From Gammaproteobacteria bacterium (GTDB lineage Bacteria > Pseudomonadota > Gammaproteobacteria > GCA-002705445 > GCA-002716945): a stretch of DNA of 38,531 nt. The position numbers and the translations under genes are program-made. Below, one piece after another: positions 23,102 to 24,285 of this stretch. The notes beneath the pieces are model-generated. The model saw only the letters and a program-made list of their open reading frames with translations, searched no databases and was not told the DNA's origin. Position 1 is the stretch's first letter. Each line of letters starts with the position of its first letter. The stretch spans positions 1-38,531 of the forward strand of contig JAURQW010000011.1 of the NCBI GenBank assembly GCA_030835925.1, given 5' to 3'.

Positions 23102-24127
23102 TTACTTTATATTGGAAGTAATCTCTCGAATTAAATTTGTACCCTTGTAGACTAAACCGGTGTACATTTGTAATAGATCAGCTCCACATTCTAATTTATA
23201 AATAGCTGATTCTTTTGTGGTTATACCGCCAGTCCCAATAATATTTATTTTACTACCTACTTGGTCCTTGATAGCTTTTATGAGATTATTGGATTTATTC
23301 AATAATGGTTTGCCACTTATACCACCTTCAATATTTATTGATTTATCATTCAATACGCTTTTGTCAACTGTTGTATTAGTTGCTATGATCCCATCAATCT
23401 CATAATCAATTGCTATTTTACAAAAACTTTCAAGGCTATCATATTGAATATCTGGTGAAATCTTCAAAACTAGCGGCACATGTTTGCGATGCTTTTTTGT
23501 CAAGCTATCATGTTTTTTCTTTACTTGTTTTAAAAAGAAATTTAAAGAGCTTTCAGAATGAAGGTCCCTTAAATTCTTCGTGTTCGGAGATGATATGTTC
23601 AGGGTAATATAATCTGCCAAGAAAAAAATTTGTTCCATACAGTATTCATAATCCTCGTGGGCTTTTTCTATTTTTGTAGTACTATTTTTACCTATATTAA
23701 TTCCAATAGGTATACCTCTATCGATTTTAAGTAAATTATTTTTAAGATAATTTACACCTTTATTATTAAACCCAAGACGGTTGATTATAGCCTGATCATC
23801 TTTAACTCTAAATATTCTTGGTTTTGGATTTCCAAACTGAGGCTTTGGTGTAACTGTTCCTAATTCTATAAAACCAAACCCAATATTAGTTATAAAGTTT
23901 ATATAATCTCCATTTTTATCAAATCCTGCAGCTAAACCTAATTTGTTCGGAAAATTTATTCCCATAATATTTTCATTACGACTATTTGGTTTCGATACTA
24001 AAAATCTCTTTAGATATGATCCATAAATTTTCTCAGCAATATATAAACTTATTTCATGAGCTTTTTCTGGTGGAAGCATAAAGATAAATTTTTTATACAC
24101 TTCAAAAAACATAGGCATAAGTTTCAT
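23102..24127 (-). CDS. pyrD: dihydroorotate dehydrogenase (quinone), class 2
   Basis: NKLGLAAGFDKNGDYINF...GFIELGTVTPKPQFGNPKPRIFR...NISSPNTKNLRDLH...IIGTGGITTKESA. Confidence 0.97.
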   Translation of the reverse strand: MKLMPMFFEVYKKFIFMLPPEKAHEISLYIAEKIYGSYLKRFLVSKPNSRNENIMGINFPNKLGLAAGFDKNGDYINFITNIGFGFIELGTVTPKPQFGNPKPRIFRVKDDQAIINRLGFNNKGVNYLKNNLLKIDRGIPIGINIGKNSTTKIEKAHEDYEYCMEQIFFLADYITLNISSPNTKNLRDLHSESSLNFFLKQVKKKHDSLTKKHRKHVPLVLKISPDIQYDSLESFCKIAIDYEIDGIIATNTTVDKSVLNDKSINIEGGISGKPLLNKSNNLIKAIKDQVGSKINIIGTGGITTKESAIYKLECGADLLQMYTGLVYKGTNLIREITSNIK

Positions 24128-24140
24128 AATATTACTTTAT

Positions 24141-24159
24141 AAGAATGAGAATCATTGTC
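24141..24159. promoter_or_regulatory. Fur-box-like 19-mer in the pyrD/rubrerythrin divergent intergenic region
   Basis: AAGAATGAGAATCATTGTC matches 15 of 19 positions of the classical Fur consensus GATAATGATAATCATTATC; contains AATGA-GAA-TCATT. Confidence 0.6.
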
Positions 24160-24185: not shown

Positions 24186-24214
24186 TTGACAACTCATATT
24201 ATTAAATTTAGAAT
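24186..24214 (+). promoter_or_regulatory. sigma70-type promoter of the rubrerythrin operon
   Basis: TTGACA (24186-24191), 17-nt spacer, TAGAAT (24209-24214), upstream of the rubrerythrin start at 24286. Confidence 0.75.
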
Positions 24215-24224
24215 GATTCTAAAT
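24206..24224. promoter_or_regulatory. Irr-box/ICE-like operator palindrome over the -10
   Basis: Perfect inverted repeat ATTTAGAA-TGA-TTCTAAAT; an extra TTCTAA half-site at 24227-24232 lies 10 bp from the TTCTAA at 24217-24222. Confidence 0.65.
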
Positions 24225-24285
24225 GGTTCTAATTTATTAGTTATTACTATTTTAGATTATTTATTTCACAATAAGGAGAAAAAAA

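Follow-up and report, generated by a model that had tools for sequence, protein, structure and literature searches.

A palindrome lying over the −10 element of an aerobic-type rubrerythrin promoter is probably the operator of an Irr-clade repressor, which is encoded convergently after the operon and would control it in response to peroxide. From comparative sequence evidence, the system is best read as a PerR-like peroxide regulon run by an Irr-clade repressor outside the Alphaproteobacteria. Known accounts treat Irr as alphaproteobacterial; what is new here is an Irr-clade regulon, predicted from sequence, beyond that class. The predicted operator, the promoter geometry, their conservation, the clade of the regulator, its co-occurrence with the site and the targets in common can all be read in the genomes compared. 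The proposal gives a testable regulator for a widespread aerobic rubrerythrin operon.

The rubrerythrin locus and its promoter

The window, i.e., the whole analysed stretch of 38,531 nucleotides, comes from a genome of the GTDB class Gammaproteobacteria, which takes in the betaproteobacteria. Its operon consists of a rubredoxin-less rubrerythrin gene, RFO and a DUF3501 gene (Table 1) and thus belongs to the aerobic-type RBR-RFO-DUF3501 clusters (PMC5114695). It is divergent from pyrD, and the two share one common intergenic region. The convergent Fur-superfamily gene that the initial annotation had placed after the operon is real, as its Pfam match shows.

Table 1. Features of the rubrerythrin locus in window coordinates.
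Feature	Position	Strand	Basis
pyrD, dihydroorotate dehydrogenase, divergent neighbour	23102..24127	-	name from sequence alone
Fur-box-like site AAGAATGAGAATCATTGTC	24141..24159	+	15/19 to 19-bp Fur consensus; ends 26 bp upstream of -35
-35 TTGACA, rubrerythrin operon promoter	24186..24191	+	read in sequence; in 19/19 same-family loci
Predicted operator ATTTAGAAT-G-ATTCTAAAT, Irr-box / Per-box type, over -10	24206..24224	.	conservation
-10 TAGAAT, within palindrome left arm	24209..24214	+	read in sequence
Extra TTCTAA half-site	24227..24232	+	read in sequence; not conserved in relatives
rbr, rubredoxin-less (aerobic-type) rubrerythrin, 139 aa	24286..24705	+	Pfam Rubrerythrin 8e-29
RFO, rubrerythrin-associated GlpC-like Fe-S oxidoreductase, 433 aa	24769..26070	+	family searches; name from PMC5114695
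DUF3501 protein, 193 aa	26093..26674	+	PF12007 7.9e-65
Irr-clade Fur-superfamily regulator, 132 aa	26675..27073	-	PF01475 7e-19; convergent with operon; coordinates from its ATG

The TTGACA-N17-TAGAAT promoter and the perfect palindrome over its −10 are all present where they had been described, with a 17-bp spacer between −35 and −10. The symmetry is indeed perfect over 19 bp, but a 9-1-9 notation fits it better than the 8-3-8 arms proposed earlier. The further TTCTAA half-site does lie 10 bp on from the palindrome; it is not conserved in relatives and is probably incidental. The earlier description, sound for promoter and palindrome, had missed a Fur-box-like site at fixed spacing. This site matches 13–16 of the 19 consensus positions in 18 of 19 same-family loci. 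It ends 26 bp upstream of the −35 of rbr at 14 of these loci and 23–24 bp upstream at the other four, with no fixed distance to pyrD.

The ICE/Irr-box consensus of the Alphaproteobacteria is TTTAGAA-N3-TTCTAAA, and the likeness noted at the outset holds, although it is not specific to Irr. TTAGAATGATTCTAA agrees with the Per-box consensus of streptococci, TTANAATNATTNTAA (PMC2518855), no less than with the Irr box; its sequence alone therefore does not distinguish between Irr and PerR. Palindromy by itself was likewise rejected as evidence for an operator, since the AT-rich window contains chance palindromes: among odd palindromes, seven have arms of at least 8 and two have arms of at least 9. 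The 0.92-Mb genome contains a single exact copy of the 17-mer core TTTAGAANNNTTCTAAA. If up to two mismatches are allowed, there are 39 sites, fewer than the 58 of a reversed control pattern; these mismatched sites are therefore noise, and the list of 39 was rejected as a source of targets.

Conservation of the palindrome and its pairing with the regulator

Among 57 genomes searched with RFO, 34 gave a match. Each of the 19 same-family loci returned has TTAGAATNATTCTAA upstream of rbr, at one and the same place in the promoter, and the regulator gene adjoins the operon in all 19, as it also does in G030. The promoters of these loci uniformly combine TTGACA and TAGAAT with a 17-bp spacer (16 bp in one), whereas the leader from palindrome to ATG ranges from 20 to 64 bp. 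Between genera, identity is 0.93 within the 19-bp palindrome vs 0.43 in the remainder of the aligned 135 bp. An alignment of homologous promoters had been set beforehand as the test that could refute the operator, and in it no same-family relative that has retained the operon has lost the palindrome. Such comparative evidence places the palindrome well beyond chance. In L108 (G013:C16:42800-46000), the operon has been lost and the operator is retained between pyrD and irr, possibly as a relic.

In other families, the operator takes the form TTTAGA(A/C)TNA(G/T)TCTAAA and lies 30–39 bp past the −35. This is near the expected start site, which is also a position for a repressor.

The pairing of operator and regulator was assessed at 80 named rbr loci, mostly from beta- and gammaproteobacteria with a few from alphaproteobacteria. 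Across these loci, the highest operator score found in front of rbr has a bimodal distribution, and a variant of the operator precedes this operon in about half of them. Scores of 12 or more out of 14 were reached by 39 of the 80 promoters vs 42 of 2,671 300-bp tiles overall, promoters included. A search of the same genomes with the IrrA model also gave two groups, at 96 bits or more and below 70 bits. With the operator counted as present at a score of at least 11, 33 loci have both operator and Irr-class protein, nine the operator only, nine the protein only and 29 neither (Fisher p = 8e-7, uncorrected for phylogeny).

Some of these exceptions, nine genomes in each direction, may reflect draft gaps or a site located elsewhere. 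Indeed, G070, which bears irr but has no site at the scored rbr, carries the operator at another rbr (L354). G035, a genome 97% complete, carries the operator but gave no Irr-class match. In 20 gammaproteobacterial genomes from outside the family, TTAGANTNANTCTAA gave 11 matches. Eight of these lie at the rbr operon, and no match comes from the eight genomes of this set whose only Fur-superfamily match is canonical Fur. A relaxed operator pattern gave no match in eight genomes without Irr, which were drawn from the operator-negative set. The circuit of regulator, operator and target first put forward for this one genome is thus supported in its pairing, but it is no isolated curiosity, being widespread in beta- and gammaproteobacteria.

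Predicted regulon and identity of the regulator

Within 25 same-family genomes, TAGAATNATTCTA occurs 52 times, compared with 12 times for the reversed control. Twenty of these sites belong to rbr, with those outside the returned loci (including that of G024) assigned by position; 19 lie upstream of ftsH, six upstream of a peroxiredoxin gene, and one each at iscR and katG. The remainder comprise the G013 site between pyrD and irr, three sites inside ORFs and one other. The second operator core of the window genome is found about 16 bp upstream of ftsH (L097:2059-2071; G000:C22:48558-48570), and the ftsH site is also present in 18 other family members and four Thiobacillus genomes.

Further sites mark genes of peroxide defence. 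G007 (L124, G007:C4:41000-49000) has no rbr operon; katG is found next to pyrD where the operon would be, retaining the operator, and the Irr-clade gene lies about 2.3 kb further on. A katG gene of an Acidiferrobacterales genome also has a site upstream. In the Thiobacillus locus L350 (G060:C37), the operator TTAGACTTGTTCTAA lies between katG and a divergent oxyR, the latter named from sequence alone, which suggests that Irr and OxyR inputs meet in this region. In three genomes of lucinid-clam symbionts (L326, L355, L356), the operator separates irr from a CCP/MauG di-haem peroxidase gene. Collectively, the predicted sites at rbr, katG, peroxiredoxin, oxyR-katG and the di-haem peroxidase outline a peroxide-defence regulon, as expected of PerR. 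They combine clear peroxide targets with the unexpected target ftsH in a conserved regulon outside the Alphaproteobacteria.

Thiobacillus also has MsrB divergent from rbr and further sites adjacent to leuA and def/LysM. Near-palindromes of the TTAGACNNNGTC type were observed upstream of irr in five beta- or gammaproteobacterial loci (L238, L243, L247, L250 and L268); none was seen in the window's own irr promoter. Self-regulation of beta/gammaproteobacterial irr through sites of this type is possible.

The best curated models for the regulator are IrrA (114 bits) and Irr (109 bits), followed by PerRA (83 bits) and Fur (24–40 bits). The NCBIfam cut-offs of 150 bits for IrrA and 170 bits for Irr are not reached, and the protein is therefore filed as Irr-clade rather than as an IrrA equivalog. 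A maximum-likelihood tree places it in one clade (support 100/91), with canonical Fur and S. aureus PerR outside it. This clade has 65 rows: the same-family proteins, 39 beta/gammaproteobacterial proteins, 10 alphaproteobacterial Irr and a fragment of Leptospira PerRA. The alphaproteobacterial Irr form a tight subclade of their own, whose position among the beta/gamma branches is weakly supported. In this tree the regulator branches with Irr rather than with Bacillota PerR, and it has neither the Arg/Glu residues of Fur nor a place on the Fur branch. No relatives were found in viral contigs.

Essentially all 64 Irr-clade rows have PerR/Irr-type residues at S51, N57, D81, H87, H89 and D100; the corresponding residues of Fur are G, R, E, H, H and E. 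The complete H-D-H-H-D metal site and the recognition-helix Asn (H33, D81, H87, H89, D100; N57) are retained equally widely. The CxxC structural zinc motif is absent from all 15 same-family proteins, and the CP haem-regulatory motif from all 54 beta/gammaproteobacterial proteins. The CP motif is also lacking in R. sphaeroides Irr (PMC3413700) and is thus not required of the Irr family. The HXH haem motif (H87, H89) is conserved, but it occurs in Fur as well and is therefore not diagnostic of Irr. The HHH motif, on which the initial annotation had based the likeness to Irr, was rejected as a marker because it was present in all six canonical Fur proteins sampled. N57, D81, D100 and the absence of CxxC are informative instead.

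Most same-family genomes also encode canonical Fur. None was found in the window genome, which is 83% complete, probably because a contig is missing.

Competing explanations and known systems

In the proposed mechanism, a dimer of the regulator would bind TTAGAATNATTCTAA over the −10 and block sigma-70 RNA polymerase; we infer this binding, the repression and the peroxide or iron signal. Peroxide would inactivate the repressor either by a PerR-like route, via bound Fe2+, or by an Irr-like one, via haem. Derepression would then yield rubrerythrin, its Fe-S electron-transfer partner RFO and the DUF3501 protein, which would clear peroxide and safeguard enzymes that depend on iron. In the window's family, this regulator would also control ftsH; in relatives, its targets would be peroxiredoxin, katG, iscR, oxyR-katG or the di-haem peroxidase. 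Given these targets and the intact PerR-type site, release by peroxide appears to be the most economical signal.

That the conserved TTAGAAT represents only a −10, with an incidental palindrome in AT-rich DNA, is extremely improbable. TAGAAT is indeed the −10, and chance palindromes with 9-bp arms do occur in the window, but the right arm ATTCTAA, outside the −10, is as invariant as the left, which argues for an operator and not merely a −10 box. In addition, the palindrome persists downstream of the −10 in GC-rich relatives and recurs upstream of other stress genes. It is also very unlikely that the palindrome is a variant Fur box recognised by canonical Fur rather than by the Irr-like protein. 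Against the widespread presence of Fur in the family and the Fur box 26 bp upstream of the −35 stand the different sequence of that separate canonical box, the tracking of the palindrome with Irr and not with Fur, and three genomes (G039, G027 and G048) that have Fur and the operon but neither Irr nor the palindrome. The nearby Fur box itself could be read by canonical Fur. Such a dual input, in which Fe-Fur at 24141-24159 activates or shapes rbr expression and the Irr-like protein represses at the −10, so that output needs both iron sufficiency and peroxide, would add to the best explanation rather than replace it. The near-constant spacing of the box to the −35, combined with its varying distance to pyrD, speaks for this arrangement, which we nevertheless regard as rather unlikely: the box could belong to pyrD instead, it is missing from L017, from the katG variant G007 and from loci outside the family, and common descent may account for part of the fixed spacing.

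The regulator might instead be a haem/iron sensor like rhizobial Irr, repressing at low iron and released by haem, so that the operon follows iron status and not peroxide. Its closest curated models, its place in the tree and its HXH motif agree with this, as does the alphaproteobacterial precedent: haem-free Irr binds DNA and dissociates when haem acts at HXH (PMC7762939), and its targets include a rubrerythrin-like gene and ccpA (PMC3413700). Yet the targets found belong to peroxide defence and not to haem synthesis or bacterioferritin, the CP motif is missing throughout the beta/gammaproteobacterial proteins, the full PerR metal site is retained, and HXH is shared with Fur. We consider the haem/iron role doubtful and prefer the peroxide-responsive Irr-clade repressor. 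It is conceivable, though still speculative, that the Irr clade is an ancient peroxide regulator of the Proteobacteria, functionally the counterpart of PerR, that the rhizobial haem/iron role is a later specialisation of the alphaproteobacterial branch, and that in the window's family the promoter also integrates Fe-Fur bound at a fixed upstream site. In beta- and gammaproteobacteria, this ancient regulator would control rubrerythrin, catalase-peroxidase, peroxiredoxin and the protease FtsH. Predicted sites are present in Thiobacillus and Thioalkalivibrio, which makes the proposal testable in cultivable hosts.

The three genes of the operon are identical in kind to those of the aerobic-type rubrerythrin cluster described previously, but a search of that paper found no regulator or operator (PMC5114695). 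Canonical Fur shares with the regulator the superfamily and the HHH motif; it differs in having Gly, Arg, Glu and Glu in place of S51, N57, D81 and D100, and its box is a different, neighboring site. PerR of the Bacillus/Streptococcus type is similar in the H-D-H-H-D residues, the recognition-helix Asn and a Per-box-compatible operator, and its targets overlap in kind with those predicted here (catalase/peroxidase, peroxiredoxin). It differs in that the regulator lacks the CxxC structural-zinc motif and groups with Irr, apart from S. aureus PerR. Leptospira PerRA (PDB 5nl9) is the best PDB match (2.5e-16), lies in the same clade and also lacks CxxC, and its autoregulatory sites resemble Irr boxes (PMC8638967). 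PerRA is, however, a spirochaete protein on a long branch of unsure placement, represented here only by the matched stretch of its sequence.

Published descriptions place Irr almost exclusively in Alphaproteobacteria (PMC7762939, PMC8638967), and RegPrecise likewise lists it as narrowly distributed there (PMC3840689); no report of an Irr regulon in beta- or gammaproteobacteria was found in the open-access literature. The alphaproteobacterial Irr/IrrA proteins share with the present regulator one clade, an ICE-like operator, the HXH motif and the lack of CxxC, and the ICE/Irr-box operator expected at Irr target promoters is represented here by the predicted, conserved site. The differences are the gammaproteobacterial host, scores under the curated cut-offs, and targets that consist of peroxide-defence genes together with ftsH and iscR. 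An Irr-clade peroxide regulon of this kind would change the account of how the functions of Irr and PerR arose.
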